From contig CP136066.1 in NCBI GenBank assembly GCA_032622095.1, forward strand, positions 11,989,784 to 12,053,783: 64,000 bases of DNA, in the 5' to 3' direction. Each line of letters starts with the position of its first letter. The stretch's first letter is position 1. Under the pieces are notes generated by a model. The model saw only the letters and a list, made by a program, of their open reading frames with translations, did not search any database and was not told the origin of the DNA. Source of the stretch: Siphonodentalium dalli (lineage: Eukaryota; Mollusca; Scaphopoda; Gadilida; Siphonodentaliidae). Both the position numbers and the translations under genes were made by a program. This document shows, one piece after another, positions 7,191-62,432 of this stretch.

Positions 7191-7221
7191 ATGTATACTT
7201 TTAGATATGAATGAGTGGAAT

Positions 7222-9094: not shown

Positions 9095-9290
9095 TAATAG
9101 TTCTTTATAGGTTCAGGCCAGCATTGATGTCAACCCCACTCCCCCTCCCCATGGAGCGTGGTTAGGGGGGTCAGACTACATACCCGGAGACCTTCCCACC
9201 GGTCCCCGAATTTCTTACCATAGAACTATTAATTTTGATGGCATGGTTCTTCATAAGATCCAGGCCAGCATTGATGCAACCTGCTCCCCT
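9095..9290 (-). pseudogene. Two broken copies of the 3' end of VPS39 exon L
   Basis: The segments at ~9215-9290 and ~9095-9140 repeat the exon end and donor: the first has tcttaccatagaactattaattttga then ggcatggttcttcataagat, as in the true exon (9362 onward). G-rich/C-rich filler separates them. They are tandem duplicates downstream of the exon, not functional exons. Confidence 0.85.
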
Positions 9291-9550: not shown

Positions 9551-9672
9551 TCCGCCGACAATATACCCAACTATGCCAAGCTCGGGGGCTGAAGGTACAT
9601 CAGCTGATGGATATAACCAATGACACCAAGCTCGGGGTGGAGGTAGGTCTTTAGTAAGTGAACATACATCTG
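9551..9672 (-). pseudogene. Two broken copies of the 5' end of VPS39 exon L
   Basis: 9551-9604 and 9605-9672 each repeat the acceptor-side half of exon L (tatacccaac, ccaagctcgggg, tttagtaagtgaacatacat). They differ by small indels that break the frame. A third copy is at 10506-10590, displaced by the element at 9679-10482. Confidence 0.87.
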
Positions 9673-9678
9673 CAAGTA

Positions 9679-10482
9679 CCGTACTGACCCGGCTCAAGGC
9701 CCATGCCCGTGTTTAAGCCCACCCATATCTTTTGACCAAATTCCATGCACAGGGGTATATTCGTGTTTAAGCCCACCCCATATTTTGTTAAATTTCAGCG
9801 GTGGTAAGTAATTATTTGCTAATGATACTTCCCAAATAAATAATTCCAATATATAAGTTATAACGGGAAGAATATTCACAAACGATCGGTGACGGCGAGA
9901 ATGCCACGAAAAATGGAAAGTTATACTTCGTAGGTAAGTGATAATAATATATAAAATAAAATAAAGTGAATCTTAAAATCTCATGGGTTCATTGTTATCC
10001 TAATCGGATTAAGTCGCTCTCTTATATGTTGCATAATATTTCCCTGTACAATTTTCTGACATTTTTTAATTATCTGAACATTGATATAAACTATAGATAA
10101 TAACTATAGATATAGACTATAGATAGTGGATTTACCCAACTGTCTGAAATGGCAGAAAAATCCGATGACGCATGATGCTTACAAACTGTCATTTATGGGA
10201 ATTTTGGGCAATAAAACAAGACAACAAGTAATATTTTAATATACACATAAAAATGAAACAAATAGTTTCTCAAAGTAACTTATACTTAACTTTATTTAAT
10301 CTGGAAGACGTGTATATTTCACCGAAACTCTGCTGGATCGACTTTATTTTTTCTTCAGTTTTACTGTCCCGATTTCTTGGGATTTTTGGTTTGCAAAGGG
10401 TCATATTCGGGTTTAAGCCCACTTGGATTTTTGAGCTCAAATAAAACAAAGGCCCCCTGGGCCTAAACGCGGGTCAGTACGG
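9679..10482. mobile_element. TA-flanked inverted-repeat element, 804 bp
   Basis: Ends ccgtactgacccg / cgggtcagtacgg are inverted and flanked by TA on both sides, as expected for Tc1/mariner-type MITEs. The interior has taagcccacccc motifs also present in the element at 33557. No transposase frame seen. It inserted into a duplicated copy of exon L sequence. Confidence 0.75.
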
Positions 10483-10505
10483 TATGAGAATTAATCATAA
10501 CTGAA

Positions 10506-10590
10506 TTTGAACATCTGCTGACGATATACCCAATGACACCAAGCTCAGGGTGGAGGTACGTCTTTAGTAAGTGAACGTACAACTGCATGA
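10506..10590 (-). pseudogene. Third broken copy of VPS39 exon L 5' end
   Basis: Repeats gctgacgatatacccaatga, caccaagctc and ctttagtaagtgaacgtac from exon L and its acceptor flank, with indels. Confidence 0.85.
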
Positions 10591-10771
10591 ATTAGAATTA
10601 TATGTAGACCACAATTATTTCAGTCAAGAATTCCGTCAATATTCTTAATAAATGCCAAACTTTATGCTAACAGTTGTGGAATAATTCAGTCATCATTTTA
10701 ACATACAATATCTTAACTATTAATATTTCAGTCTAGAACTCGGCCAATTCTCTCACAGATACCTAACTTAA

Positions 10772-15000: not shown

Positions 15001-16347
15001 CTACCCTTTATTGTACATCAGACAAAACACTGAAACATTATGATTTAGATATAACATGATATAGTATCTTTATTGGTGATGCTAGCCCGCCGTGCGGTGA
15101 GTGTGTACTGAGAGAGTAATGGCTTGGTTTAAACAATATTTATTCTACCCTTTATTGTACATCAGATAAAACATTGAACATTATGATTTAGATATAACAT
15201 GATATAGTATTTGGTGATGCTAGCCGCCGTGCGGTGAGTGTGTACTGAGAGAGTAATGGCTTGGTTTAAACAATATTTATTCTACCCTTTATTGTACATC
15301 AGACAAAACATTGAACATTATGATTTAGATATAACATGATATAGTATCTTTATTGGTGATGCTAGCCCGCCGTGCGGTGAGTGTGTACTGAGAGAGTAAT
15401 GGCTGGGTTTAAACAATATTTATTCTACCCTTTATTGTACATCAGATAAAACATTGAACATTATGATTTAGATATAACATGATATAGTATTTGGTGATGC
15501 TAGCCCGCCGCGCGGTGAGTGTGTACTGAGAGAGTAATGGCTGGGTTTAAACAATATTTATTCTACCCTTTATTGTACATCAGATAAAACATTGAACATT
15601 ATGATTTAGATATAACATGATATAGTATTTGGTGATGCTAGCCGCTGTGCGGTGAGTGTGTACTGAGAGAGTAATGGCTTGGTTTAAACAATATTTATTC
15701 TACCCTTTATTGTACATCAGATAAAACATTGAACATTATGATTTAGATATAACATGATATAGTATTTGGTGATGCTAGCCCGCCGTGCGGTGAGTGTGTA
15801 CTGAGAGAGTAATGGCTGGGTTTAAACAATATTTATTCTACCCTTTATTGTACATCAGACAAAACACTGAACATTATGATTTTGATATAACATGATATAG
15901 TATCTTTATTGGTGATGCTAGCCCGCCGTGCGGTGAGTGTGTACTGAGAGAGTAATGGCTGGGTTTAAACAATATTTATTCTACCCTTTATTGTACATCA
16001 GACAAAACATTGAACATTATGATTTAGATATAACATGATATAGTATCTTTATTGGTATCGGTGATGCTAGCCCACCGCACGGTGAGTGTGTACTGAGAGA
16101 GTAATGGCTTGGTTTAAACAATATTTATTCTACCCTTTATTGTACATCAGATAAAACACTGAACATTATGATTTAGATATGATATAGTATCTTTATTGGT
16201 GATGCTAGCCCGCCGTGCGGTGAGTGTGTACTGAGAGAGTAATGGCTTGGTTTAAACAATATTTATTCTACCCTTTATTGTACATCAGACAAAACACTGA
16301 ACATTATGATTTAGATATAACATGATATAGTATCTTTATCGGTATCA
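12098..16347. repeat. ~141-bp satellite, 30 copies, containing a MITE core
   Basis: Thirty units (135-152 bp) starting gtgtgtactgagagagtaat. Each ends with ggtgatgctagcccgccg and tgcgg, which is the loop region of the neighbouring family H MITE. Length differences come mostly from three alternative spacers before that core. Marker variants (tatttgctgatgc then tatttgatgatgc) recur 1852 bp apart, so blocks of units were duplicated together. No coding. Confidence 0.97.
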
Positions 16348-17671: not shown

Positions 17672-17717
17672 ATCTTTACTATTCTCTTTATGTCTGTTGT
17701 AAGTTGTTTTGCAGTAT
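17672..17717 (-). CDS. VPS39: VPS39 exon K (46-nt micro-exon)
   Basis: 46 nt: one base completing Thr386, then 15 codons YCKTTYNRHKENSKD. Acceptor tttttacag, donor gtaagt. Human has 'YCHKHYDRNKDGNKD' at this point. Phase fits on both sides (2 + 1, then 0). It is isolated between an 8.1-kb and an 8.8-kb intron. The right end of a MITE lies about 22 bp from the donor. Confidence 0.9.
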
Positions 17718-18917: not shown

Positions 18918-21900
18918 ATGAAAGTGTCAATGACACTGTAGCTCAACTTGGAAAGGGAATAATTTAATGTATTACAGTCAATGGAGCCATTAGGAATGTG
19001 GAAAGTTGAATATCTAATACATGTTTATAGACATGAAGAGAAAAGTAAAATCCAAGATGGCTGCTGGCGGCCATGTTTTCGGCCGAATGACCCCAAAATG
19101 AGTCGTTCCCATCTACATGTCATCGTTAACATCCATGACAAATTTTATGACGATCAGACTAAAGGTACGACCTGTAGCCCATGCTAAAGAATTTAGTCAT
19201 ACAAAGAGTAAAATCCAAGATGGCTGCTGGCAGCCATGTTTTTTGGCCGAATGATCCCAAAATGACTCGTTCCCATCTACATGTCATTATTAACATTCAT
19301 GACAAATTTTATGATGATCAGACTAAAGGTATGACATGTAGCCCGCGCTAAAGAATTTAGTCATACAAAGAGTAAAATCCAAAAAGGCTGCTGGCAGCCA
19401 TTTTTTGGGCCGAATGACCCCAAAATTACTCGTTCCCATCTACATTCCAATTTCAACAACCATGACAAATTTTATGATGATCAGACTAAAGGTACGACCT
19501 GTAGCCCATGCTAAAGGATTTAGTCATACAAAGAGTAAAATCCAAGATGGCTGCTGGCGGCCATGTTTTTCGGCCGAATGACCTCAAAATGACTCGTTCC
19601 CATCTACATGTCATTATTAACATTCATGAGAAATTTCATGATGATCAGACTAAAGGTACAACCTGTAGCCCGTACTAAAGGATTTAGTCATACAAAGAGT
19701 AAAATCCAAGATGGCTGCTGGCGACCAGGTTTTTTGGCCGAATGACCCCAAAATTACTCGTTCCCATCTACATGTCATTGTTAACATCCATGACACATTT
19801 TATGATGATCAGACTAAAGGTACGACCTGCAGCCCATGCTAAAGAATTTAGTCATACAAAGAGTAAAATCCAAGATGGCTGCTGGCGGCCATGTTTTTTG
19901 GCCAAATGACCCCAAAATTACTCGTTCCCATCTACATGTCAATATTATCATCCACGACAAATTTCATGGTGATCAGAAGAACAGTACGACCTGTGGCCCG
20001 TGCTAATGGATTAAATTTTTAAATCCAATATGGCCACTGGCGGCCATGTTTTTTGTCCGAATGACCCCAAAATGACTCGTTCCCATCCACATTCCAATTT
20101 CAACAAACATGACAAATTTTATGATGATCAGACTAAAGGTACGACCTGTAGCCCGTGCTAAAGGATTTAGTCATACAAAGAGTAAAATCCAAGATGGCTG
20201 CTGGCGGCCATGTTTTTTGGCCGAATGACCCCAAAATGACTAGTTCCCATCTACATGTCATTGTTAACATCCATGACACATTTTATGATGATCAGACTAA
20301 AGGTACGACCTGCAGCCCGTGCTAAAGAATTTAGTCATACAAAGAGTAAAATCCAAGATGGCTGCTGGCGGCCATGTTTTTTGGCCGAATGACCCCAAAA
20401 TTACTCGTTCCCATCTACATGTCATTGTTAACATCCATGACACATTTTATGATGATCAGACTAAAGGTACGACCTGCAGCCCGTGCTAAAGAATTTAGTC
20501 ATACAAAGAGTAAAATCCAAGATGGCTGCTGGCGGCCATGTTTTTTGGCCGAATGACCCCAAAATTACTCGTTCCCATCTACATGTCAATATTATCATCC
20601 ATGACAAATTTCATGATCATCAGACGAACAGTACGACCTGTGGCCCGTGCTAATGGATTAAATTTTTAAATCCAAGATGGCCGCTGGCGGTCATGTTTTT
20701 TGTCCGAATGTCCCCAAAATAACTCGTTCCCATCTACATTCCTATTTCAACAACCATGACAAATTTTATGATGATCAGACTAAAGGTACGACCTGTAGCC
20801 CATGCTAAAGGATTTAGTCATACAAAGAGTAAAATCCAAGATGGCTGCTGGCGGCCATGTTTTTCGGCCGAATGACCTCAAAATGACTCGTTCCCATCTA
20901 CATGTCATTATTAACATTCATGACAAATTTCATGATGATCAGACTAAAGGTACAACCTGTAGCCCGTGCTAAAAGATTTAGTCATACAAAGAGTAAAATC
21001 CAAGATGGCTGCTGGCGTCCAGGTTTTTTTGGCCGAATGACCCCAAAATTACTCGTTCCCATCTACATGTCATTGTTAACATCCATGACACATTTTATGA
21101 TGATCAGACTAAAGGTACGACCTGCAGCCCGTGCTAAAGAATTTAGTCATACAAAGAGTAAAATCCAAGATGGCTGCTGGCGGCCATGTTTTTGGGCCGA
21201 ATGACCCCAAAATTACTCGTTCCCATCTACATGTCAATATTATCATCCACGACAAATTTCATGATGATCAGAAGAACAGTACGACCTGTGGCCCGTGCTA
21301 ATGGATTAAATTTTTAAATCCAATATGGCCACTGGCGGCCATGTTTTTTGTCCGAATGACCCCAAAATGACTCGTTCCCATCCACATTCCAATTTCAACA
21401 AACATGACAAATTTTATGATGATCAGACTAAAGGTACGACCTGTAGCCCGTGCTAAAGGATTTAGTCATACAAAGAGTAAAATCCAAGATGGCTGCTGGC
21501 GGCCATGTTTTTTGGCCGAATGACCCCAAAATTACTCGTTCCCATCTACATGTCATTGTTAACATCCATGACACATTTTATGATGATCAGACTAAAGATA
21601 CGACCTGCAGCCCGTGCTAAAGAATTTAGTCATACAAAGAGTAAAATCCAAGATGGCTGCTGGCGGCCATGTTTTTTGGCCGAATGACCCCAAAATTACT
21701 CGTTCCCATCTACATGTCAATATTATCATCCATGACAAATTTCATGATCATCAGACGAACAGTACGACCTGTGGCCCGTGCTAATGGATTAAATTTTTAA
21801 ATCCAAGATGGCCGCTGGCGGTCATGTTTTTTGTCCGAATGACCCCAAAATAACTCGTTCCCATCTACATTCCAATTTCAACAACCATGACAAATTTTAT

Positions 21901-23160
21901 GATGATCAGACTAAAGGTACGACCTGTAGCCCATGCTAAAGGATTTAGTCATACAAAGAGTAAAATCCAAGATGGCTGCTGGTGGCCATGTTTTTCGGCC
22001 GAATGACCTCAAAATGACTCATTCCCATCTACATGTCATTATTAACATTCATGACAAATTTCATGATGATCAGACTAAAGGTACAACCTGTAGCCCGTGC
22101 TAAAGGATTTAGTCATACAAAGAGTAAAATCCAAGATGGCTGCTGACGTCCAGGTTTTTTGGCCGAATGACCCCAAAATTACTCGTTCCCATCTACATGT
22201 CATTGTTAACATCCATGACACATTTTATGATGATCAGACTAAAGGTACGACCTGTAGCCCGTGCTAAAGGATTTAGTCATACAAAGAATAAAATCCAAGA
22301 TGGCTGCTGGCGACCATGTTTTTTAGCCGAATGACCCCAAAATTACTCGTTCCCATCTACATGTCAATATTATCATCCATGAAAAATTTCATGGTGATCA
22401 GACGAACAGTACGACCTGTGGCCCGTGCTAATGGATTAAATTTTGAAATCCAAGATGGCTGCCTGCTGGCGGCCATGTTTTTTGTCCGAATGACCCCAAA
22501 ATGACTCGTTCCCATCTACATTCCAATTTCAACAGCCATGACAAATTTTATGATGATCAGACTAAAGGTACGACCTGTAGCCCGTGCTAAAGGATTTAGT
22601 CATACAAAGAGTAAAATACAGGATGGCTGCTGGCGGCCATGTTTTTTGGCCGAATGACCCCAAAATGACTCGTTCCCATCTACATGTCATTATTAACATT
22701 CTTGACAAAATTTATGATGATCAGACTAAAAGTACGACCTGTAGCCCGTGCTAAAGAATTTAGTCATACAAAGAGTAAAATCCAAGATGGCTGCTGGCGG
22801 CCATGTTTTTGGGCCGAATGACCCCAAAATTACTCGTTCCCATCTACATGTCAATATTAACATCCATGACAAATTTCATGAAGATCAGACAAACAGTACG
22901 GACTGTAGCCCGTGCTAATGGATTGAATTTTGAAATCCAATATGGCCACTGGCGGCCATGTTTTTTTTCCGAATGACCCCAAAATTAATTATTCTGGTCT
23001 AAATGTTGATGTCAACAGCTATGACAAATTTCATAATGATCCGACGAAAGGTACGACCTGTAGCCTGCATTGTTGACGCCTTACGTACACACGTACACAC
23101 GTACACACGGACGACAAAGCCATGGCAATAGCTCAAACTTTACAAAGTAAAGTTGAGCTA
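18918..23160. mobile_element. Helentron/HINE-like element, ~24-unit array (copy 2)
   Basis: Same left end as copy 1 (gaaagtgtcaatgacactg, tagctcaacttgg) and same right end (microsatellite 23085-23110, hairpin 23127-23160). About two dozen ~164-bp units alternate between a 'catacaaagagtaaaatcc' type and an 'attaaattttgaaatcc' type, forming multi-unit higher-order repeats. The open frames in it are repeat artefacts. Confidence 0.82.
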
Positions 23161-25440
23161 AAAATGACTCGTTCCCATCTCCATGTCATTGTTAACATCC
23201 ATGACAAATTTTATGATGATCTGACCAAAGGTACGACCTGTAGCCCGTGCTAAAGGATTTAGTCATGCAAAGAGTAAAATCCAAGACGGCTGCTGGCGGC
23301 CATGTTTTTTGGCCGAATAACCCCAAAATGACTCGTTCCCATCTACATGTCATTGTTAATATCCATGACAAATTTTATGATGATAAGACTAAAGGTACGA
23401 CCTGCAGCCCGTGCTAAAGGATTTAGTCATACAAAGAGTAAAATCCAAGATGGCTGCTGGCGGCCATGTTTTTGGGCCGAATGACCCCAAAATGACTCGT
23501 TCCCATCTACATGTCAATATTAACATCCATGACAAATTTCATGATGATCAGACGAACGATGCGACCTGTGGCCCGTGCTAATGGATTGAATTTTGAAAAC
23601 AAAGATGGCCACTGGTGGCCATGTTTTTTGTCCGAATGACCCCAAAATGACTCGTTCCCATCTACATTCCAATTTCAACAGCCATGACAAATTTCATGAT
23701 TATCAGACTAAAGGTACGACCTGTAGCCCGTGCTAAAGGATTTAGTCATACAAAGAGTAAAATCCAAGATGGCTGCTGGCGGCCATGTTTTGTGGCCGAA
23801 TGACCCCAAAAATGACTAGTTCCCATCTACATGTCATTGTTAACATCCATGACACATTTTATGATGATCAGACTAAAGGTACGACTGCAGCCCGTGCTAA
23901 AGAATTTAGTCATACAAAGAGTAAAATCCAAGATGGCTGCTGGCGGCCATGTTTTTTGGCCGAATGACCCCAAAATTACTCGTTCCCATCTACATGTCAA
24001 TATTATCATCCACGACAAATTTCATGATGATCAGAAGAACAGTACGACCTGTGGCCCGTGCTAATGGATTAAATTTTTAAATCCAATATGGCCACTGGCG
24101 GCCATGTTTTTTGTCCGAATGACCCCAAAATGACTCGTTCCCATCCACATTCCAATTTCAACAAACATGACAAATTTTATGAAGATCAGACTAAAGGTAC
24201 GACCTGTAGCCCGTGCTAAAGGATTTAGTCATACAAAGAGTAAAATCCAAGATGGCTGCTGGCGGCCATGTTTTGTGGCCGAATGACCCCAAAAATGACT
24301 AGTTCCCATCTACATGTCATTGTTAACATCCATGACACATTTTATGATGATCAGACTAAAGGTACGACCTGCAGCCCGTGCTAAAGAATTTAGTCATACA
24401 AAGAGTAAAATCCAAGATGGCTGCTGGCGGCCATGTTTTTTGGCCGAATGACCCCAAAATTACTCGTTCCCATCTACATGTCAATATTATCATCCATGAC
24501 AAATTTCATGATCATCAGACGAACAGTACGACATGTGGCCCGTGCTAATGGATTAAATTTTTAAATCCAAGATGGCCGCTGGCGGTCATGTTTTTTGTCC
24601 GAATGTCCCCAAAATAACTCGTTCCCATCTACATTCCAATTTCAACAGCCATGACAAATTTTATGATGATCAGACTAAAGGTACGACCTGTAGCCCGTGC
24701 TAAAGGATTTAGTCATACAAAAAGTAAAATACAGGATGGCTGCTGGCGGCCATGTTTTTGGGCCGAATGACCCCAAAATTACTCGTTCCCATCTACATGT
24801 CATTATTAACATTCATGACAAATTTCATGATGATCAGACTAAAGGTAAAACCTGTAGCCCGTGCTAAAGGATTTAGTCATACAAAGAGTAAAATCCAAGA
24901 TGGCTGCTGGCGGCCATGTTTTTTGTCCGAATGACCCCAAAATGACTCGTTCCCATCTACATTCCAATTTCAACAGCCATGACAAATTTTATGATGATCA
25001 GACTAAAGGTACGACCTGTAGCCCGTGCTAAAGGATTTAGTCATACAAAAAGTAAAATACAGGATGGCTGCTGGCGGCCATGTTTTTGGGCCGAATGACC
25101 CCAAAATTACTCGTTCCCATCTACATGTCAATATTAACATCCATGACAAATTTCATGAAGATCAGACAAACAGTACGGCCTGTAGCCCGTGCTAATGGAT
25201 TGAATTTTGAAATCCAATATGGCCACTGGCGGCCATGTTTTTTTTCCGAATGACCCCAAAATTAATTATTCTGGTCTAAATGTTGATGTCAACAGCTATG
25301 ACAAATTTCATAATGATCCGACGAAAGGTACGACCTGTAGCCTGCATTGTTGACGCCTTACGTACACACGCACACACGGACGACGGACGACAAAGCCATG
25401 GCAATAGCTCAAACTTTACAAAGTAAAGTTGAGCTAATAA
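23161..25440. mobile_element. Helentron/HINE-like array fused head-to-tail (copy 3, no left end)
   Basis: Begins inside a core unit (aaaatgactcgttcccatct) directly after the terminal hairpin of copy 2. It runs about 13 units and ends with its own microsatellite and hairpin (gtaaagttgagctaataa at 25423-25440). It has no left terminus of its own. Confidence 0.82.
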
Positions 25441-29040: not shown

Positions 29041-29069
29041 ATATTCTCAGTCCTGGCCGAGATGTCAGT

Positions 29070-29213
29070 AAAATGATAAGTTTATAACAGAACTACACAA
29101 CGTTCAAGTCATCATTCATTTGATTCGTATTATTAACTGGTTAAAGTGATAAGTTTATAACAGAACTACACCACGTTAAAGTCATCATTCATTTTATTCG
29201 TATTATGAACAAG
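29070..29213 (-). pseudogene. Two decayed copies of VPS39 exon I (5' half)
   Basis: 29070-29145 and 29146-29213 repeat catcattcatttgattcgta and ataagtttata from exon I. Translated in the exon's frame the first gives NTNQMNDDLNVV, a stop, then KLIILLT, against NTNQMNDDSDVVEFRHKLIMFLT in the true exon, so it is a dead duplicate. The second was split by the MITE at 29210. Confidence 0.9.
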
Positions 29214-29389: not shown

Positions 29390-30066
29390 AATTAATGCTG
29401 CCAAATGACTTTGGGTTCGGGGGTAAAAAATATTTATTTTGAGTTGATGAACCTACCCATCAAAGCTCAGAGTGATCAGATATCGATTTTTGAAATTTGT
29501 TATTTCTCGAAATGTTTAATTATTTGTGGCCCAGAAATGAGTCACGGACAAAATTGTGGATGAAGATGGATAACTCTACAATGAAGTGGTAATATGGCCA
29601 AATTTCGAAAGTGATAATAAGGCCCTATTTCATTGAACAACATGTTGATAAATATCACGTTTTGGGAAATTTTATACCATAGTTGACAGCGGTTAGCATT
29701 ATTTTGTTGTAATTAATCGATTCTGATAACAAAAGCATATTTTGAAGAAATGTTGTTGTTGTAACTTGATGATATTGGCAAGCCTTGAAATAGGGTGTCT
29801 GTCATTTGCAGAATGAGGTCCCCAGAGGGTGAATTTAGTGATGCTACCCCGCATAGCGGGCTAGCATCACCAAATTCACCCTCTGGAGACCTCATTCTGC
29901 TTACACCTCAGCAGAATGATGTTCCCAGAGGGTGAATTTGGTGATGCTAGCCCGCTATGCGGGGTAGCATCACTAAATTCACCCTCTGGGAACCTCATTC
30001 TGCAAATGACAGACACCCTATTTCAAGACTTGGATATTGTGACAGTCTGATTGGATTGAGTACCTT
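29390..30066. mobile_element. TA-type MITE (family E) carrying a nested family H MITE
   Basis: Right end ggattgagtacctt/TA and the internal tcagatatcgatttttgaaa match the complete copy at 47317-47797. The left end is eroded. A family H MITE is inserted at 29779-30032. Confidence 0.75.
29779..30032. mobile_element. Family H MITE, double-hairpin form with TSD
   Basis: Ends caagccttgaaatagggtgt / gacaccctatttcaagacttg. Target duplication gatattgg / gatattgt (7 of 8). Two hairpins are joined by cttacacctcagcag. Confidence 0.92.
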
Positions 30067-32069: not shown

Positions 32070-32321
32070 TCGCGATATAAAAAATGTCAAGTTATGTCCC
32101 TTCTTACCTTCAGGAAGTGCAGCTAGGTATTCTGTCTGTAGCGTTTGTATTTTCTCTTGATACAGAATGACTAGTTTATTGTGATACATTATAGAGTTAT
32201 GTCCCTTATTACCTTCATGAAGTGTAGCTAGGTATTCCATTTGTAAGGTTGGTACGTTCTCTCCATGGATACAGAATGACCAGTTTATTGTGATACATTG
32301 TAGAATTATGTCCCTTCTTAC
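32070..32321 (-). pseudogene. Two truncated tandem copies of VPS39 exon H
   Basis: Copies ending at donors 32212 and 32104 repeat tatcacaataaactggtcat, gaatacctagct and cacttc(c/a)tgaag|gtaa. The unit is about 110 bp and joins at gtaagaaggg/acataa, so it spans the exon 3' part plus the start of the intron. Copy 2 has a frameshift around ccatggagagaacgt. Copy 3 keeps the frame (NKLVILYQEKIQTLQTEYLA) but no copy has its own acceptor. Confidence 0.92.
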
Positions 32322-32439
32322 CTTCAGGAAGTGCAGCTAGGTATTCCTTCTGTAGCGATTGTATTTTCTCTCGATACAGAATGACTAGTTTATTGTGGAA
32401 TTCAGCAGTTTTATCATCTAAATTCAGAGTAATATGCTC
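32322..32439 (-). CDS. VPS39: VPS39 exon H
   Basis: 118 nt (residues 271-309 plus one base). Acceptor tttattttcag, donor gtaaga. Encodes EHITLNLDD then FHNKLVILYREKIQSLQKEY and LAALPE, parallel to human 'EHIIHVWEE', 'RFHNCLIQLYCEKVQGLMKEY'. Two truncated tandem copies of its 3' part, each with a donor, follow at 32212 and 32104. A piggyBac-type MITE sits 43 bp upstream of the acceptor. Confidence 0.94.
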
Positions 32440-35483: not shown

Positions 35484-35685
35484 TTTGTTAATGTTAATAT
35501 TGTTGATAATTATGTTGGAATAAAATTAATAAATTTAAAAAAGTTTTATTTTCATGTTATGATGGAGGGATAATGCGATGAAAAAAAATCTCCCTATTTC
35601 TCCCTAAATCTCCCTATATTGGAAGACTGATCTCACTATTTCATATAATACCAGGTTGACATGTCTGTTCGCATACCAATTAAAT

Positions 35686-35775
35686 ATTCTCACTAAATAT
35701 GGAATGGCTTCACAAACCAATTGAATATTGTCACTAAATATGGAATGGCTTCACAAACCAATGGAAGATACTCAC
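35686..35775 (-). repeat. Duplicated exon G donor, two extra copies
   Basis: cactaaatatggaatggctt occurs at about 35691 and 35732, just below the true donor at 35771-35775. On the gene strand each reads AGCCATTCCATATTTA|gtgag or gtgac. The second copy keeps a GT. Confidence 0.93.
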
Positions 35776-35874
35776 TAAATATGGGATGGCTAAATCAGCT
35801 GAGATCCGTATTAAATACTCGAGGACGCTATCACGTGGTAACAATTCTACCTCCGGCAGATCTTCAGTGAATAT
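35776..35874 (-). CDS. VPS39: VPS39 exon G
   Basis: 99 nt, 33 codons (residues 238-270). Acceptor ggtattttcag, donor gtgagt. Reads IFTEDLPEVELLPRD and ends in LAIPYL, matching human 'IFTEDLPEVESLPRD' and 'LAIPYL'. The exon's last 16 nt plus donor recur twice more immediately downstream (35686-35775), so up to three donor-like sites lie within about 90 bp. Confidence 0.95.
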
Positions 35875-46510: not shown

Positions 46511-46554
46511 ACTAGATGTCGGAGATACTGCACTGTCCGATAATGAACTTTGAC
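46511..46554 (-). pseudogene. Decayed copy of the 3' end of VPS39 exon E
   Basis: tagatgtcggagatactgca plus ctgtccgat repeats the exon end (ctaaatgttggagatattgc). On the gene strand it still reads CGG ACA GTG CAG TAT CTC (RTVQYL), but the donor GT has become TA. Confidence 0.92.
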
Positions 46555-46794: not shown

Positions 46795-47020
46795 ATCATT
46801 TTTTAACACTTTTAACCATTTTTTCTTACATTCTTTAACAATTTTATCATTTTTTCTTACATTTTTTAACAATTTTTTTAATATTTTTCTACATTCTTTG
46901 ACAATTTTATCATTTTTAATATGTGTTAAGCCAATGCATTCTCTTGTATATGCGAGGCGACCTATGGTCGACTCGCATAAGAGAATGCATTGGCACAGGG
47001 CCGTTCTGTTGGGTAAAGGG
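46795..47020. mobile_element. Family P MITE, left end missing
   Basis: Right end ctgttgggtaaaggg/TTAA and one palindrome (cttgtatatgcgaggcgacc). The left part dissolves into ttcttacattctttaacaa repeats. Followed by a two-copy repeat (ttatctgaacatttcct, 47035-47135). Confidence 0.83.
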
Positions 47021-47316
47021 TTAATGGTAAAGAACTTATTATCTGAACATTTCCTATGGTAACTACTCATCATTGAGTATTTAATGGTATAGAACTCATT
47101 ATCTGAACATTTCTTGAGGTAACTACTCATCAATGAGTATTTACTATTGAAAGGCTAAAAGAAAGGGACATTTTTGGGAAAGTGATTTCAATGTTTGGAA
47201 TATGTTTTGATATGAATGTTATATGAATGTTATAAATTATGGAGGTTCTGGTGAATTCACTTTTTTTATGTAGTGCTTTTTGTTGTATAGAATAATACAT
47301 TCACCATCTTTATTAA

Positions 47317-47797
47317 AGGTACTCAATCCGATCAGAGGGTCCCCATCTCAACAGATTCCAACAACAACAATCCGATCAGAGGGTCCTATATTACTATTTC
47401 TTTGGCTTTGGGCTGCTTTGGGGTTAAAAAATATTTGATTCGAGTCGAGGAACCCATCAAACAAAGCTCAGAGTTATTAGATATTGATTTTTGAAATTTG
47501 TTATTTTCTCGAGATGAGTACTAATAATTGCCCTTAGCTTCGTAATCTGCTCGAGATGTGTACACCAAAACACTATTCAAACAGACAAGGATGGGTAACT
47601 CTAAAATCAAGTGGTAATAATAACGCAATTTTGACCGTGTTCTGGGACAGAAAGAATAGAAATAACAAAACTTCAAATATCGATATCTGATCACCCTGTG
47701 CTTTGATTGGTAGGTTCCTCGACTCGAATCAATTATTTTTTACCCCCAAAGCCAAAGAAATAGTAATATAGGACCCTCTGATCGGATTGAGTACCTT
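47317..47797. mobile_element. Family E MITE, complete, TA flanked, 481 bp
   Basis: Ends aaggtactcaatcc / ggattgagtacctt flanked by TA. Long inverted arms (ctatattactatttctttgg, tcgagtcgaggaaccc and inverses). A short internal duplication lies near the left end. It inserted into the 26-bp repeat beside exon D. Confidence 0.87.
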
Positions 47798-47879
47798 TAA
47801 ATGCTTGAAGGTCGGAGGTTTATTAAATGCTTGAAGGTCGGCGGTTTATTAAATGCTTGAAGGTCGGAGGTTTATTCAC
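47798..47879 (-). repeat. 26-bp triplication at the exon D donor
   Basis: tttattaaatgcttgaaggt plus cgg(a/c)gg occurs three times; the last copy runs into the donor (gtgaat) of exon D. Confidence 0.93.
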
Positions 47880-48021
47880 CTTTTTGATGGAGTCCCTTTC
47901 GCTCGTATAGAATTATCAGTTCGCTATACTTCTCCCTCCTCTTTAGAACCCTCTCGCTCTCCTCCACATGACAACAGTTATCCTTCAGTCGTAACAGTGG
48001 GGCCACCAGCGCATCATTCGT
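47880..48021 (-). CDS. VPS39: VPS39 exon D
   Basis: 142 nt (residues 137-183 plus one base). Acceptor ttttttccag, donor gtgaat. Begins TNDALVAPLLRLKDN and continues through EESERVLK to KYSELIILYERKGLHQK, collinear with human Vps39_1 ('TNVALVAPLLRLENN', 'KYSELIILYEKKGLHEK'). This exon is the apparent parent of the 99-bp satellite that fills the intron on its 5' side. Its donor side also carries a 26-bp intronic triplication (47797-47879). Confidence 0.95.
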
Positions 48022-48640
48022 CTGGAAAAAAATATTAACTGTACAAAAATATCACATAAAATAGGCGCTACCAGCACATTATTCATCTGGAAAAAAATAT
48101 CACATAAAATAGGTGCTACCAACACACACATCATTCATCTGGAGAAAAAATATCACGTAAAATAAGTATGAAAGCCGAAGGTTGTTGCTAATTGCTAGTT
48201 GCTTGTTGCTTGTTGCAGACTGTACAATAACCAATGACATTCAACTTCACAAAACGCGATTTGGCACATGTATTCCCTACTATTGGTTTACATTTCAAAT
48301 GAATGTCTGACTGAAATTGGTTTTAACATTACTGATAAGTGACGGAATGCTGGATTTTTTCAAGGTGCCTTTGATCAACCCGAATAATTAATCGACGACG
48401 CATGTAGGGGGGGGGGGGGGGGTCTTGTGATTTGTTTATAACTAACATTCAGTCTGTGATGCCGGATTACATTGGTCATTATCCCAACTAGCAACAAACA
48501 ACTAGCAATTGGCAACTAGCAACAAGCATGTGCCCTTCGGCTTTTCATAAATATGAGCTGCCAGAGCAACATTCATCTGATCAAAAATATCACATTACAA
48601 TAGGCGCTACCAGCACATCATAGATCTGAAAAACATCAAA
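48022..48640 (-). repeat. Short diverged copies of the exon D acceptor region, with a MITE insert
   Basis: Two ~50-bp units at 48063-48160 and more at 48550-48640 repeat gctaccagcacattattcat, ctggaaaaaaatatcacata. This is the first ~20 nt of exon D plus its acceptor and pyrimidine tract. They are interrupted at 48169-48547 by another element. These older, variable copies bridge exon D and the homogeneous 99-bp satellite. Confidence 0.9.
48169..48547. mobile_element. TA-type MITE with 16-G run
   Basis: Inverted arms tgaaagccgaagg / ccttcggcttttca and gctagttgcttgttgc / gcaactagcaacaagc, with TA at each edge. Contains a run of 16 G (48407-48422). Inserted within exon-derived repeats. Confidence 0.78.
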
Positions 48641-51600
48641 TAATAGGTGCTACCAGCACATCATTCCTCTTAAAAACAACATGACATACCAATAGGTGCT
48701 CTGAAAATATCATACAAAAATAGTTATCCTTCTGTGATAACAGAGTCACCACAAGTGAGTCATTCCTCTTAAAAACAACATGACATACCAATAGGTGCTC
48801 TGAAAATATCATACAAAAATAGTTATCCTTCTGTGATAACACAGGCACCACAAGTGAGTCATTCCTCTTAAAAACAACATGACATACCAATAGGTGCTCT
48901 GAAAATATCATACAAAAATAGTTATCCTTCTGTGATAACACAGGCACCACAAGTGAGTCATTCCTCTTAAAAACAACATGACATAACAATAGGTGCTCTG
49001 AAAATATCATACAAAAATAGTTATCCTTCTGTGATAACACAGGCACCACAAGTGAGTCATTCCTCTTAAAAACAACATGACATACCAATAGGTGCTATGA
49101 AAATATCATACAAAAATAGTTATCCTTCTGTGATAACAGAGGCACCACAAGTGAGTCATTCCTCTTAAAAACAACATGACATACCAATAGGTGCTCTGAA
49201 AATATCATACAAAAATAGTTATCCTTCTGTGATAACAGAGGCACCACAAGTGAGTCATTCATCTGAAAAACAACATCACATACCAATAGGTGCTCTGAAA
49301 ATATCATACACAAATAGTTATCCTTCTGTGATAACAGAGGCACCACAAGTGAGTCATTCCCCTTAAAAACAACATGACATATCAACAGGTGCTCTGAAAA
49401 TATCATACAAAAATAGTTATCCTTCTGTGATAACACAGGCACCACAAGTGAGTCATTCCTCTTAAAAACAACATGACATAACAATAGGTGCTCTGAAAAT
49501 ATCATACAAAAATAGTTATCCTTCTGTGATAACAGAGGCACCACAAGTGAGTCATTCATCTTAAAAACAACATGACATAACAATAGGTGCTCTGAAAATA
49601 TCATACAAAAATAGTTATCCTTCTGTGATAACACAGGCACCACAAGTGAGTAATTCCTCTTAAAAACAACATGACATAACAATAGGTGCTCTGAAAATAT
49701 CATACAAAAATAGTTATCCTTCTGTGATAACAGAGGCACCACAAGTGAGTCATTCCCCTTAAAAACAACATGACATACCAATAGGTGCTCTGAAAATATC
49801 ATACAAAAATAGTTATCCTTCTGTGATAACAGAGGCACCACAAGTGAGTCATTCCTCTTAAAAACAACATGACATAACAATAGGTGCTCTGAAAATATCA
49901 TACAAAAATAGTTATCCTTCTGTGATAACACAGGCACCACAAGTGAGCCATTCCTCTTAAAAACAACATGACATACCAATAGGTACTCTGAAAATATCAT
50001 ACAAAAATAGTTATCCTTCTGTGATAACAGAGGCACCACAAGTGAGTCATTCCTCTTAAAAACAACATGACATACCAACAGGTGCTCTGAAAATATCATA
50101 CAAAAATAGTTATCCTTCTGTGATAACAGAGGCACCACAAGTGAGTCATTCCTCTTAAAAACAACATGACATACCAATAGGTGCTCTGAAAATATCATAC
50201 AAAAATAGTTATCCTTCTGTGATAACAGAGGCACCACAAGTGAGTCATTCCTCTTAAAAACAACATGACATAACAATAGGTGCTCTGAAAATATCATACA
50301 AAAATAGTTATCCTTCTGTGATAACACAGGCACCACAAGTGAGCCATTCCTCTTAAAAACAACATGACATAACAATAGGTGCTCTGAAAATATCATACAA
50401 AAATAGTTATCCTTCTGTGATAACACAGGCACCACAAGTGAGCCATTCCTCTTAAAAACAACATGACATAACAATAGGTGCTCTGAAAATATCATACAAA
50501 AATAGTTATCCTTCTGTGATAACACAGGCACCACAAGTGAGCCATTCCTCTTAAAAACAACATGACATACCAATAGGTACTCTGAAAATATCATACAAAA
50601 ATAGTTATCCTTCTGTGATAACAGAGGCACCACAAGTGAGTCATTCCTCTTAAAAACAACATGACATACCAACAGGTGCTCTGAAAATATCATACAAAAA
50701 TAGTTATCCTTCTGTGATAACAGAGGCACCACAAGTGAGTCATTCCTCTTAAAAACAACATGACATACCAACAGGTGCTCTGAAAATATCATACAAAAAT
50801 AGTTATCCTTCTGTGATAACAGAGGCACCACAAGTGAGTCATTCATCTGAAAAACAACATCACATACCAATAGGTGCTCTGAAAATATCATACAAAAATA
50901 GTTATCCTTCTGTGATAACAGAGGCACCACAAGTGAGTCATTCCTCTTAAAAACAACATGACATACCAATAGGTGCTCTGAAAATATCATACAAAAATAG
51001 TTATCCTTCTGTGATAACAGAGGCACCACAAGTGAGTCATTCCTCTTAAAAACAACATGACATACCAATAGGTGCTCTGAAAATATCATACAAAAATAGT
51101 TATCCTTCTGTGATAACAGAGGCACCACAAGTGAGTCATTCCTCTTAAAAACAACATGACATACCAACAGGTGCTCTGAAAATATCATACAAAAATAGTT
51201 ATCCTTCTGTGATAACAGAGGCACCACAAGTGAGTCATTCCTCTTAAAAACAACATGACATACCAACAGGTGCTCTGAAAATATCATACAAAAATAGTTA
51301 TCCTTCTGTGATAACAGAGGCACCACAAGTGAGTCATTCATCTGAAAAACAACATCACATACCAATAGGTGCTCTGAAAATATCATACAAAAATAGTTAT
51401 CCTTCTGTGATAACAGAGGCACCACAAGTGAGTCATTCCTCTTAAAAACAACATGACATACCAATAGGTGCTCTGAAAATATCATACAAAAATAGTTATC
51501 CTTCTGTGATAACAGAGGCACCACAAGTGAGTCATTCCTCTTAAAAACAACATGACATACCAATAGGTGCTCTGAAAATATCATACAAAAATAGTTATCC

Positions 51601-53840
51601 TTCTGTGATAACAGAGGCACCACAAGTGAGTCATTCCTCTTAAAAACGACATGACATACCAATAGGTGCTCTGAAAATATCATACAAAAATAGTTATCCT
51701 TCTGTGATAACACAGGCACCACAAGTGAGTCATTCCTCTTAAAAACAACATGACATACCAATAGGTGCTCTGAAAATATCATACAAAAATAGTTATCCTT
51801 CTGTGATAACAGAGGCACCACAAGTGAGTCATTCCTCTTAAAAACAACATGACATACCAATAGGTGCTCTGAAAATATCATACAAAAATAGTTATCCTTC
51901 TGTGATAACACAGGCACCACAAGTGAGTCATTCCTCTTAAAAACAACATGACATACCAATAGGTGCTCTGAAAATATCATACAAAAATAGTTATCCTTCT
52001 GTGATAACAGAGGCACCACAAGTGAGTCATTCCTCTTAAAAACAACATGACATACCAATAGGTGCTATGAAAATATCATACAAAAATAGTTATCCTTCTG
52101 TGATAACACAGGCACCACAAGTGAGTCATTCCTCTTAAAAACAACATGACATACCAATAGGTGCTCTGAAAATATCATACAACAATAGTTATCCTTCTGT
52201 GATAATAGAGGCACCACAAGTGAGTCATTCATCTGAAAAACAACATGACATACCAATAGGTGCTCTGAAAATATCATACAAAAATAGTTATCCTTCTGTG
52301 ATAACACAGGCACCACAAGTGAGTCATTCCTCTTAAAAACAACATGACATACCAATAGGTGCTCTGAAAATATCATACAAAAATAGTTATCCTTCTGTGA
52401 TAACACAGGCACCACAAGTGAGTCATTCCTCTTAAAAACAACATGACATACCAACAGGTGCTCTGAAAATATCATACAAAAATAGTTATCCTTCTGTGAT
52501 AACAGAGGCACCACAAGTGAGTCATTCCTCTTAAAAACAACATGACATAACAATAGGCGCTCTGAAAATATCATACAAAAATAGTTATCCTTCTGTGATA
52601 ACACAGGCACCACAAGTGAGTCATTCCTCTTAAAAACAACATGACATACCAATAGGTGCTCTGAAAATATCATACAAAAATAGTTATCCTTCTGTGATAA
52701 CAGAGGCACCACAAGTGAGTCATTCCTCTTAAAAACAACATGACATACCAACAGGTGCTCTGAAAATATCATACAAAAATAGTTATCCTTCTGTGATAAC
52801 ACAGGCACCACAAGTGAGTCATTCATCTGAAAAACAACATGACATACCAATAGGTGCTCTGAAAATATCATACAAAAATAGTTATCCTTCTGTGATAACA
52901 CAGGCACCACAAGTGAGTCATTCCTCTTAAAAACAACATGACATACCAATAGGTGCTCTGAAAATATCATACAAAAATAGTTATCCTTCTGTGATAACAC
53001 AGGCACCACAAGTGAGTCATTCCTCTTAAAAACAACATGACATACCAACAGGTGCTCTGAAAATATCATACAAAAATAGTTATCCTTCTGTGATAACAGA
53101 GGCACCACAAGTGAGTCATTCCTCTTAAAAACAACATGACATAACAATAGGCGCTCTGAAAATATCATACAAAAATAGTTATCCTTCTGTGATAACACAG
53201 GCACCACAAGTGAGTCATTCCTCTTAAAAACAACATGACATACCAACAGGTGCTCTGAAAATATCATACAAAAATAGTTATCCTTCTGTGATAACAGAGG
53301 CACCACAAGTGAGTCATTCCTCTTAAAAACAACATGACATAACAATAGGCGCTCTGAAAATATCATACAAAAATAGTTATCCTTCTGTGATAACACAGGC
53401 ACCACAAGTGAGTCATTCCTCTTAAAAACAACATGACATACCAACAGGTGCTCTGAAAATATCATACAAAAATAGTTATCCTTCTGTGATAACAGAGGCA
53501 CCACAAGTGAGTCATTCCTCTTAAAAACAACATGACATACCAACAGGTGCTCTGAAAATATCATACAAAAATAGTTATCCTTCTGTGATAACACAGGCAC
53601 CACAAGTGAGTCATTCCTCTTAAAAACAACATGACATACCAATAGGTGCTCTGAAAATATCATACAAAAATAGTTATCCTTCTGTGATAACAGAGGCACC
53701 ACAAGTGAGTCATTCCTCTTAAAAACAACATGACATACCAATAGGTGCTCTGAAAATATCATACAAAAATAGTTATCCTTCTGTGATAACAGAGGCACCA
53801 CAAGTGAGTCATTCCTCTTAAAAACAACATGACATAACAA
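48641..53840 (-). repeat. 99-bp satellite derived from VPS39 exon D and its acceptor, ~52 copies
   Basis: The unit on the gene strand contains gttgtttttaag then AGGAATGACTCACTTGTG, GTGCCTCTGTTATCACAG, AAGGATAACTAT. Translation RNDSLVVPLLSQKDNY parallels exon D TNDALVAPLLRLKDNC in the same frame (about 36 of 48 nt identical). Some units (near 49257, 50843, 51340, 52230, 52827) retain a consensus acceptor tgtttttcag|ATGAATGAC. The unit length is invariably 99 bp, so the frame stays open for 5.2 kb apart from two stops (near 49094 and 52064), each from the same change in the TTTTCAGAG motif. Higher-order spacing is exact (aggcgctc at 52555, 53149, 53347: 6 and 2 units). Confidence 0.95.
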
Positions 53841-53967
53841 TAACTATTATATTTTCATCAACTTTTTACATTAAAATATAAATTGTTTCCTCACTCCCAA
53901 AAGACAGAACATGTTATTCCAATCTAAAAATGTTTTTCCTACTCTCAGCACTACGGCATGACGTCAT

Positions 53968-54980
53968 ATTGTTTTGCGTTATTCGGTATACTTCCATGTT
54001 ATTTTTTGCGTTATTCGGTATACTTCCATGTTATTTTTTGCGTTATTCGGTATACTTGCATGTTATTTTTTGCGTTATTCGGTATACTTCCATGTTATTT
54101 TTGCGTTATTCGGTATACTTGCATGTTATTTTTTGCGTTATTCGGTATACTTCCATCTTATTTTTTGCGTTATTCGGTATACTTCCATGTTATTTTTGCG
54201 TTATTCGGTATACTTGCATGTTATTTTTTGCGTTATTCGGTATACTTCCATCTTATTTTTTGCGTTATTCGGTATACTTCCATGTTATTTTTGCGTTATT
54301 CGGTATACTTCCATGTATTTTTGCGTTATTCGGTATACTTCCATGTTATTTTTGCGTTATTCGGTATACTTCCATGTTATTTTTGCATTATTCGGTATAC
54401 TTGAATGTTATTTTTGCGTTATTCGGTATACTTCCATGTTATTTTTGCGTTATTCGGTATACTTACATGTTATTTTTGCATTACTCGGTATACTTGCATG
54501 TTATTTTTGCGTTATTCGGTATACTTCCATGTTATTTTTGCGTTATTCGGTATACTTCCATGTTATTTTTGCGTTATTCGGTATACTTACATGTTATTTT
54601 TGCGTTACTCGGTATACTTCCATGTTATTTTTGCGTTATTCGGTATACTTCCATGTTATTTTTGCGTTATTCGGTATACTTCCATGTTATTTTTGCGTTA
54701 TTCGGTATACTTCCATGTTATTTTTGCGTTATTCGGTATACTTCCATGTTATTTTTGCGTTATTCGGTATACTTCCATGTTATTTTTGCGTTATTCGGTA
54801 TACTTCCATGTTATTTTTTGCGTTATTCGGTATACTTGCATGTAATTTTTTGCGTTATTCGGTATACTTGCACGTTATTTTTTGCGTTATTCGGTATACT
54901 TGCACGTTATTTTTTGCGTTATTCGGTATACTTGCACGTTATTTTTTGCGTTATTCGGTATACATGCGCGTTATTTTAAC
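53968..54980. repeat. 31-32-bp minisatellite, about 32 copies
   Basis: Unit tgcgttattcggtatacttc, catgttattt(t/tt). The 31/32-bp alternation moves the frame, yet all three plus frames stay mostly open because the unit has few stops. Apparent long proteins here are artefacts. Single-base variants (ttcat, ttgcat, ttacat) are scattered. Confidence 0.96.
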
Positions 54981-55429: not shown

Positions 55430-55559
55430 CTAGCTATGACAGCAGATTAAATAATTTACATGTAGGTAACATTTGAGGAGCGGTGTCTGTGATAGTTATG
55501 ATGGCAGCATTATATAATTTACCTGTAGGTAACTATGATGGCAGCATTATATAATTTAC
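55430..55559 (-). repeat. Duplicated exon C 3' end and donor, two extra copies
   Basis: aatttacctgtaggtaac with atgatggcagcattatat recurs around 55495-55559. An older copy at 55460-55497 includes ~36 nt of exon C (gene strand ATCACAGACACCGCTCCT..., against ATAGACACCACTCTCCTG). Donor-like TACCTACA(G/T)|gtaaat is present in each. Confidence 0.92.
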
Positions 55560-55691
55560 CTGTAGGTAGCATTTCAGGAGAGTGGTGTCTATGATTTGCC
55601 GGAGTTGTTTCTTGGGAGTTTTCGCAATACTGCTCTCAACAATCGGTGTATTTATCATCTCGCGATTAGAATCTTTGAGAGAATGTCGAAT
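55560..55691 (-). CDS. VPS39: VPS39 exon C
   Basis: 132 nt, exactly 44 codons (residues 93-136). Acceptor acattttag, donor gtaaat. The C-terminal half reads KKQLRQIIDTTLLKCYLQ, matching the start of the Vps39_1 domain (human 'KKKLLQIIDTTLLKCYLH'). The N-terminal half is a variable linker, as in other animals. The donor region is repeated twice more just downstream (55460-55559). Confidence 0.95.
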
Positions 55692-57758: not shown

Positions 57759-57838
57759 TTCTGATCTGAATTAAGTAGTCGATGAGGAAAAGTATTCCTT
57801 TCTCTATGAGAGACAGGATGCCTTCCTCTAGTTCTCAC
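57759..57838 (-). pseudogene. Broken tandem copy of VPS39 exon B 3' end
   Basis: Gene strand: GAACTAGAGGAAGGCATCC, TGTCTCTCATAGA, an insertion, then GACTACTTAATTCAG. It begins within 5 nt of the true donor and repeats the last ~45 nt of exon B with ~25 extra nt inside. Confidence 0.92.
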
Positions 57839-60683: not shown

Positions 60684-61508
60684 TGTGTCAATGAAACCAC
60701 AGCTCAACATGGAAAGGGGATAATGTCATACATCAAAGTCAACGAAGTGATAATGAATGCGGAAAGTTGAATTGTTCAAGTCATACTAGAGGTCATCACG
60801 AAGCCATATAAAGTCTGGGATCAATCAGATGAAAAATGTTGGCTGTAGGGCATGCCGTAGGATTTAGTCATGCAAAGAGCAAAATCTAAGATGGTTGCCA
60901 GTGGCCATATTTTTATTGATAATCAATAAAATTTGATAGCTCCCATCTAGAAGTTATTCTAAAAATGCCTCTCAATTTTATAAAAGTTTCTTTTAGAAAT
61001 TTAAGCTTGCCAGGCATGCAGATGGATTCAATGTAAAATCCAAGATGGCCACTAACGGCTATGTTTTTCGACAAAATTCAGATCAATTTGATGGATCCCG
61101 TCCAGAGGTCACCTCGAAGATCCATATTAAGTTTGGGATGAATCTGATGAAAAGTGATGGCTGTATGGCATGCCAAATTATTTCGTCATGTAAAGAATAA
61201 AATCAAAGATGGCTCCCAGCAGCCATGTTTTTCATCGAAAATTGATCAAATTTGAAAGCTTCCATCTAAAGGTCACCCCAAAGATCTATGTAAAGTTTGG
61301 AATTAATCGGATATAAAATGTTGGCTGTAGGTGTGCCGAAGTTTTATACATTGTCATGTAAAGTGTAAAATCCAAAATGGCTGCCAGCAGCCATGTTTTT
61401 TATTGACAATCATTCAAATTTGATAGTTCCCATTTAAAGGTGATCCTAATTATTAAAATATTACTTTAATGAATGTTGGTTGCAGATGAATTAAAGTTGA
61501 GCTAATAA
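60684..61508. mobile_element. Helentron/HINE-like element, diverged copy 4
   Basis: Left aatgtgtcaatg and cagctcaacatgg, right aaagttgagctaataa. The core has four or five diverged ~150-bp units (caaagatggctcccagcagc, aaaatccaaaatggctgcca). No AC microsatellite. The right end is 22 bp from the exon A donor. Confidence 0.8.
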
Positions 61509-61666: not shown

Positions 61667-62432
61667 CTGCAGAGAGAAACTCGATTATTTCTCATACCAA
61701 GTAGAGTAATTAAAACAAAAGATCGCAGACCCCACGTCCCCGGAATCGAGGTGGATTATTACTCATACCAAGCAGAGTAATTAAAACAAAAGGTCACAGA
61801 CCCACATCACTCGAATTGAAGTGGATTATTTCTCATACCAAGCAGAGTAATTAAATCAAAAGATCGCAGACCCCACGTCCCCCGAATCGAGGTGGATTAT
61901 TTCTCATACCAAGCAGTGTAATTAAAATAAAAGGTCGCAGACCCCACGTCCCGGAATCGAGGTGGATTATTTCTAATACCAAGCAGAGTAATTAAAACAA
62001 AAGGTCGCAGACCCCACGTCCCGGAATCGAGGTGGATTATTTCTAATACCAAGCAGAGTAATTAAAACAAAAGGTCGCAGACCACACGTCCCGGAATCGA
62101 GGTGGATTATTTCTAATACCAAGCAGAGTAATTAAAACAAAAGATCGCAGACCCCATGTCCCCGGAATCGAGGTGGATTATTTCTAATACCAAGCAGAGT
62201 AATTAAAACAAAAGATCGCAGACCCCATGTCCCCGGAATCGAGGTGGATTATTTCTCATACCAAGCAGAGTAATTAAAACAAAAGATCGCAGACCCCATG
62301 TCCCCGGAATCGAGGTGGATTATTTCTCATACCAAGCAGAGTAATTAAAACAAAAGATCGCAGACCCCACGTCCCCCGAATTGAGGTGGCACATATCTTG
62401 CAGAGAGAAACTTGATTATTTCTCATACCAGA
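61667..62432. repeat. ~73-bp minisatellite at the exon A acceptor, about 10 copies
   Basis: Unit taccaagcagagtaattaaa, acaaaagatcgcagacccca, cgtccc(c)ggaatcgagg, tggattatttctca, 68-73 bp. The first unit starts about 25 bp from the acceptor. At 62392-62432 a copy of the acceptor itself (gcagagagaaacttgattat) closes the array. A stray unit fragment lies at 62520-62570. Confidence 0.93.

Follow-up and report, generated by a model that had tools for sequence, protein, structure and literature searches.

In amphioxus, repeats known as mirages have been described at exon-intron boundaries of the genes Adh3 (Adh) and TnC and of the globins BflGb6 and BflGb9, with a similar case in PGBD5 (PMC3087553, PMC3902484). 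In the portions of these two reports that we draw on, both 5' and 3' boundaries are affected, the authentic exon is intact, and mRNA splicing is reported as undisturbed, with reverse transcription-PCR in PMC3087553, where mirages are also proposed as a route to new introns. Two further systems come close, again in the portions of the sources used here: a tandem duplication across an intron-exon boundary of potato RdRp led to intron gain (PMC4974935), and human segmental duplications contain variable minisatellites, some of them at exon-intron boundaries, that alter intron structure (PMC2812944). Here, we describe a 5.2-kb array in the gene VPS39 of the scaphopod mollusc Siphonodentalium dalli. 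It lies in a stretch of 64,000 nucleotides (GenBank assembly GCA_032622095.1, contig CP136066.1, positions 11,989,784 to 12,053,783), which we call the window and number from its first letter. An earlier note, made by a model from the letters of the window, had pointed to a satellite born from a VPS39 exon, called exon D here. We consider it probable (about 0.8) that the array is a mirage-type minisatellite born by tandem duplication across the intron/exon D junction.

Results

VPS39 lies on the minus strand of contig C6, with part of the gene in the window, and its features below are on that strand. All 17 matches of a Haliotis VPS39 query in the genome (a 2.23-Gb assembly of 9 contigs) fell at this one locus, and in the listed best 120 of 896 matches, the nearest relatives of the protein came from Haliotis cracherodii (66%) and from a chiton (64%). 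Our model of the gene comprises 22 coding exons with GT-AG borders and, of the last exon, the acceptor; the first exon and the stretch near Haliotis residues 73 to 84 were not found in the exon modelling. Exon D (142 nt, 47880 to 48021, TNDALVAPLLRLKDNCCHVEESERVLKRREKYSELIILYERKGLHQK) has an acceptor ending in TTTTTTTCCAG and the donor GTGAAT, shares 84% of 50 aligned residues with Haliotis VPS39, and falls in the Pfam family Vps39_1 (E = 3.7e-12). Since it is a conserved VPS39 exon, the exon and not the array is the source. The upstream exon C (55560 to 55691) meets it in phase 0.

The array occupies 48661 to 53842 (Tandem Repeats Finder: period 99, 52.3 copies, 97% matches, 0% indels). The 52 complete units stand head to tail, each of them precisely 99 bp long; 23 are distinct, and the mean pairwise identity is 97.5%. 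On the minus strand, each unit carries the last ~13 nt of the intron, followed by the 3' splice site and ~48 nt from the start of exon D. Aligned to exon D, the units match from about -13 to +49 at 71 to 76% identity; the best blastn match in the 64-kb window had E = 1.4e-7. The local alignment score of unit and exon was 46, against a maximum of 30 in 1,000 shuffles of the unit and of 26 for window pieces outside 47000 to 54000; chance similarity was rejected on the shuffles and the blastn match. The earlier note had described the copy number, the constant unit length, and the composition of the unit correctly. It was also right that units keep an acceptor, and "several" was too low a number, as the junction reads AG in 52 of 52 units (TTTTTAAG in 47, TTTTTCAG in 5). 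The array thus has three structural features of a mirage: its unit spans an exon-intron boundary, it lies beside an intact authentic boundary (exon D is open, with GT-AG borders), and the splice dinucleotide is kept in its copies.

The complete unit can be read as acceptor 1, exon head (nt 1 to 50), intron tail, a second acceptor-like site, an exon-head remnant, and again intron tail, where the second half is assigned by a weak alignment. The AG of the second, internal site (TATGATATTTTCAG) is kept in 50 of 52 units, 48 of which have the full preceding 20-nt consensus. The remnant aligns with the shorter copies described next at a score of 28; in 2,000 shuffles the highest score was 33 and the tenth highest 26.

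Between exon D and the array are shorter copies of ~48 bp each, comprising about 24 nt of intron tail, the acceptor, and about 24 nt of exon head. These putative first-generation copies start some 24 nt away from the acceptor of exon D (48045 to 48164; Tandem Repeats Finder, alignment), and further copies of the type merge into the 99-bp array at 48550 to 48660. The innermost end of the array is a boundary unit that fuses the two types. The 48-bp copies are split by an apparently inserted element at 48165 to 48550, without assigned strand, whose subterminal inverted repeats (35 nt) are 86% complementary; because the element interrupts them, the 48-bp copies would be older than it is.

A search of the 2.23-Gb genome with 137 nt of the array gave 52 matches, a lower bound in a search that skips very common words, and all of them lay at the VPS39 locus. 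The array is therefore a single-locus minisatellite and not a dispersed satellite. Its 5.2 kb at one locus contrast with the many loci or megabase arrays of satellite DNA, and the search returned no dispersed unit copies of the kind a transposable element would leave; on this search, both were rejected. In this one assembly, the 97.5% homogeneity of the units is compatible with length instability between alleles. Shorter copies between exon and array, and the derivation of the unit from exon D and its acceptor, had both been proposed in the earlier note, and the alignment, the adjoining 48-bp copies, and the conservation of the exon bear them out; its own refuting condition, units genome-wide or far from VPS39, was decided in its favour in this genome, where the search returned only this locus.

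We scored splice sites with a matrix built from 41 acceptors of three genes, which is small and specific to this genome and whose scores do not imply use. The authentic 3' splice site region of exon D (48022 to 48041, CAGTTAATATTTTTTTCCAG) scored 13.4 when left out of the matrix; the median of real sites is 9.2. In the array, 103 of 304 AG sites reached the 10th percentile of the 41 real acceptors; the corresponding counts were 7 of 109 for the remainder of this intron and 11 of 440 for a 9,518-bp intron of VPS39. Scores above that of exon D's own acceptor occur at three sites in the intron: 48625, which lies among the 48-bp copies and is the best of the intron (16.3), 52826, and 52232. The TTTTTAAG junction scores about 8, and its CAG version 13 to 14. 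The unit also has a donor, TTG/GTATGT, that scores 7.8 (real median, 8.6) and is preserved in full by 40 of 52 units. In 38 of 52 units, the complete GTATGT donor occurs together with an acceptor AG and a 78-nt segment free of stops, in phase with exons C and D; the segment holds 26 stop-free codons, the first 16 of them derived from the start of exon D. The intron between adjacent units would be just 21 nt long, which speaks against units being included in series.

The sense frame through the array is interrupted only by stops at 52067 and 49097, the two that had been reported before. Differences between exon and unit are distributed over codon positions 1, 2, and 3 as 2/5/5 and polymorphic sites among units as 9/4/4, with no third-position excess in either set, and a search with ten translated units gave no match at E = 0.01 in the 8,000 candidates scored from a database of 5.8 billion sequences. 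A coding function of the open frame is rejected by the codon-position counts and the protein search. The frame is indeed "still" open, as the earlier note put it, apart from the two stops, but it shows no sign of selection and its retention looks passive, explained by a period divisible by three and by the small number of stops, two, that have appeared. We judge, without computation, that a stop-free unit with such a period and 16 inherited exon codons is not rare.

Junction-spanning copies also flank other exons of VPS39. We counted an edge as positive when an ungapped copy with at least 6 nt on each side of the junction and a score of 32 lay within 2 kb in the adjoining intron. By this measure, 14 of 44 edges carried copies (9 of 22 donors, 5 of 22 acceptors). 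The AG was kept in 36 of 38 acceptor copies and the GT in 34 of 37 donor copies, most of which come from three arrays (reach for exon D, 6 kb). At the exon level, 13 of 22 exons were positive at scores of 28 to 32, 11 at 36, 10 at 40, and 9 at 50.

On the donor side, the 3' end of exon C with its donor is duplicated at +37 (55497 to 55568) and again at 55493 to 55428. Tandem Repeats Finder and alignment identified three donor-spanning arrays: 13 copies of 25 bp with exon tail and donor (CTACAG/GTGAGG) at and beyond the end of exon 7667-7533 (7219 to 7542), 3 copies of 41 bp at the end of exon 35874-35776 (35668 to 35791), and 2.9 copies of 109 bp comprising nt 43 to the end of exon 32439-32322 with the donor (32092 to 32397). 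The tails of exons 57978-57839 and 46647-46561 each have a single copy whose donor lacks GT (57759 to 57804 and 46513 to 46554, respectively), and tail copies of exon 9523-9362 lie at 9097 to 9276, the nearer one with the donor. Outside the window, exon 78787-78693 has 14 further donor copies, the nearest at +31. On the acceptor side, head copies of exon 9523-9362 lie within 9551 to 10603 (10603 to 10508 and 9678 to 9610, both across the acceptor, and 9601 to 9551), and two tandem head copies of exon 28211-28086, one across the acceptor, at 29060 to 29208. A 71-bp array at 61683 to 62430 carries the intron tail (-39 to -16) of exon 61666-61531, with one acceptor copy, its AG lost, at the outer end.

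Two apparent patterns in these copies were discarded. The surplus of donors over acceptors does not reach significance (P = 0.33). All nine of the nearest donor-copy offsets are indivisible by 3 (post hoc P = 0.026), and this fails outside VPS39, where two loci have offsets of 42 (L059) and 87 (L063).

We compared these counts with the background in introns. In a looser first scan of 13 exons, 12 of 26 edges were positive, but so were 83 of 150 random intron points (score 36). The conclusion that exon edges are ordinary was rejected, as long arrays had been counted many times: local copies were found at 48% of 400 random points in VPS39 introns and at 14% when copy-weighted (13% with 300 points over 93 kb; 12% with 600 points and a 1-kb reach). 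The looser scan had also counted a 26-bp repeat at 47797 to 47876 that starts inside the intron at the exon D donor and is excluded by the stricter criterion. Against the copy-weighted 14%, the excess at VPS39 edges has a P value of 0.002 overall and of 0.0018 for donors, although VPS39 was picked because it stood out and its excess is not an unbiased estimate. In VCP and beta-catenin, none of 42 edges and none of 23 exons had junction copies, against a copy-weighted background of about 5% (11 introns of VCP were modelled, 3 of them poorly but kept among the 42 edges, and 10 of beta-catenin). Tandem arrays with a period of at least 10 make up 32% of the VPS39 region, 9% of that around VCP, and 3% of that around beta-catenin. 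They also make up 17% and 27% of the 10-kb stretches flanking the VPS39 region, so the duplication hotspot at VPS39 may be regional.

As a sample of other genes, we used 36 of 43 VCP-query matches outside the VCP gene, leaving out six similar matches at C2:163.6-164.2 Mb and C3:114726542. Their edges are alignment ends and hence approximate, and an exon-level threshold score of 36 was applied. Five of the 36 exons had junction copies, all scoring above 50 (L046, L059, L063, L064, and L065); a sixth positive, L044, was false, the match lying in a read-through intron. L046 (C8:150238000-150240390) has several copies, at a period of 71, of an acceptor with 62 nt of exon head that include a GPPGTGKT-like (Walker A) stretch of an AAA-type gene. 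L063 (C5:65808390-65810760) has a short-period donor-spanning array of many copies (CATTAGTATCAAGGTA...) directly after the VCP-matched exon; by eye, some copies lack GT. L064 has an acceptor copy. Exons with copies were more frequent in VPS39 (11 of 22) than elsewhere (5 of 59; P = 0.0001). Around the 36 other exons, the copy-weighted rate in introns was 6.5% (900 points), about the edge rate of 5 in 72, as near-neutrality predicts. Exon D is therefore not special; several genes undergo junction-spanning duplication about as often as other intron positions are duplicated, and VPS39 is a hotspot.

Other repeats occur in and around the gene. A 164-bp family (AAAATCCAAGATGGC...) forms separate arrays in three introns (5268 to 6855, 19044 to 25342, and the more diverged 61034 to 61441), in contrast to the single-locus 99-bp unit. 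Two more large arrays, with 30 copies of 143 bp and 80 copies of 39 bp, lie at 12098 to 16343 and 379 to 3451, respectively, and comparison of the exons with 40 nt on either side against the window reported no exon homology for them. A hairpin-like sequence (CAGAATGAGGTCCCCAGAGGGTGAATTTAGTGATGCTA...) at 29808 to 30003, perhaps a dispersed short inverted-repeat element, recurs by eye near exons in L046, L059, and L065 that are unrelated to one another. VPS39 also contains a micro-exon of 46 nt (YCKTTYNRHKENSKD, 17672 to 17717) between introns of 8.8 and 8.1 kb.

Discussion

The history that we propose starts with a tandem duplication that would have crossed the intron/exon D junction of VPS39. 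A first round would have given the ~48-bp units of 24 nt of intron tail and 24 nt of exon head. A second duplication that took in more of the exon (about 50 nt), joined to what was left of a unit of the first type, could then have produced the 99-bp unit, which would have been amplified, probably via slippage or unequal exchange, and homogenised to 52 copies. The order of these events and the composite nature of the second half of the unit are what we infer from the layout of the locus. Units differ from the exon by about a quarter and from each other by 2.5%, which suggests an old birth and a recent last homogenisation.

A duplication across an acceptor would leave the authentic acceptor beside the intact exon, and after one across a donor the authentic donor would come first. 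Provided that splicing uses the authentic site, the message would be unchanged and the duplicate removed as intron, and nothing would halt growth. Amphioxus, with mRNA reported as unchanged, offers a precedent (PMC3087553, PMC3902484). At exon D, the authentic acceptor is nearest to the exon and strong and would presumably be used, with the copies spliced out with the intron and so free to multiply. The array would then be kept as a by-product, close to neutral, of tandem duplication that is frequent in this region.

Several results weigh against this account. The splice signals of the array are undecayed, as the acceptor-range sites and the three that outscore the authentic one illustrate. 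The homology of the second half of the unit to the 48-bp copies is weak taken alone. Plain neutrality would leave accurate splicing unexplained, and that accuracy is itself presumed here from sequence. The edges of VPS39 hold more copies than its own introns predict, and VCP and beta-catenin carry no junction-spanning copies.

The undecayed signals could instead form a functional decoy field, in which array acceptors compete with that of exon D and adjust the splicing of VPS39 or the level of its transcripts, to a degree set by the length of the array. The share of AG sites in the real range, far above that in the rest of the intron or in the comparison intron, and the sites at 48625, 52826, and 52232 would suit such a role, yet the authentic acceptor is strong (13.4 against a median of 9.2) and nearest to the exon, 47 of 52 units carry the junction that scores about 8 rather than the CAG version, and amphioxus mirages are described, in the portions of the reports we draw on, without effect on splicing (PMC3087553, PMC3902484). 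We consider this role improbable. The earlier note had suggested that the array might provide "dozens" of decoy acceptors; that potential is present and larger than stated, with 103 sites in range. Of the three outcomes it listed (decoys, transcription in every pre-mRNA, or a neutral by-product), a neutral by-product seems the most likely. It is very improbable that the array serves as a reservoir of cassette exons, each unit offering an acceptor, 78 nt, and the donor GTATGT for in-phase use between exons C and D. The 38 formally complete units, the donor score of 7.8 (real median, 8.6), and the phase 0 junction would permit it, but the codon-position counts lack a third-position excess, adjacent units would leave a 21-nt intron, and ten translated units found no match among the 8,000 candidates scored. 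If true, VPS39 could have variants with an extra segment whose number and choice vary with allele length.

An unrelated satellite or transposon-borne repeat with a chance likeness to exon D has a next to negligible probability. Bivalve transposons with internal tandem repeats are known, and the window holds other large arrays; set against this are an alignment score above all shuffles, a junction in register, the 48-bp copies by the exon, and the single place returned by the genome search. A further explanation, compatible with a mirage-type origin, is that exon-intron borders of VPS39 attract tandem duplication, for example, through a transcription-linked DNA structure. It draws on the excess of copies at VPS39 edges, and at donors in particular, over the copy-weighted background, and on the contrast between VPS39 exons (11 of 22) and those elsewhere. 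The 36 other exons, however, have an edge rate equal to their intron rate, the signal comes from one gene chosen as a standout, and donors and acceptors do not differ significantly; we regard targeting of this kind as rather unlikely.

A mirage-type minisatellite at exon D would be a natural stress test of splice-site choice among near-identical sites. The presence of some hundred acceptor-like sites within a single intron makes the question of splice choice directly testable. More generally, such arrays are unplanned experiments on site choice by the spliceosome, on intron growth, and on intron birth.

Arrays of mutually exclusive exons of the Dscam type also bear comparison. The 38 units that formally combine acceptor, in-phase open segment, and donor resemble them, but the units here are part-exons with no sign of coding constraint. 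As in potato RdRp, in the portion of that report used here, the duplicated segment crosses the boundary and brings the acceptor along; there, one duplication made a new intron, whereas the copies here enlarge an existing one (PMC4974935). The human minisatellites average 30-bp units and 4 copies and belong to recent primate paralogues, and units of exon end plus splice site are absent from their description in the portion of PMC2812944 used here. We found no mollusc mirage in the literature (open-licence papers, few term combinations). The mirage of amphioxus BflGb6 is described with the same layout, the 3' end of an intron with the 5' part of an exon, with 3 and 6 units of 150 to 160 bp in two haplotypes, compared with 52 units and 5.2 kb at exon D. 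Relative to the amphioxus mirages, the locus in this mollusc has a composite-looking unit and shows copies at 14 of the 44 edges modelled in a single gene. The kind of repeat is already known from amphioxus; what VPS39 adds is the phylum, the 52 copies, the composite-looking unit, the many edges in one gene, and the occurrence in several genes, and the exon D array is an extreme case of this little-studied kind.

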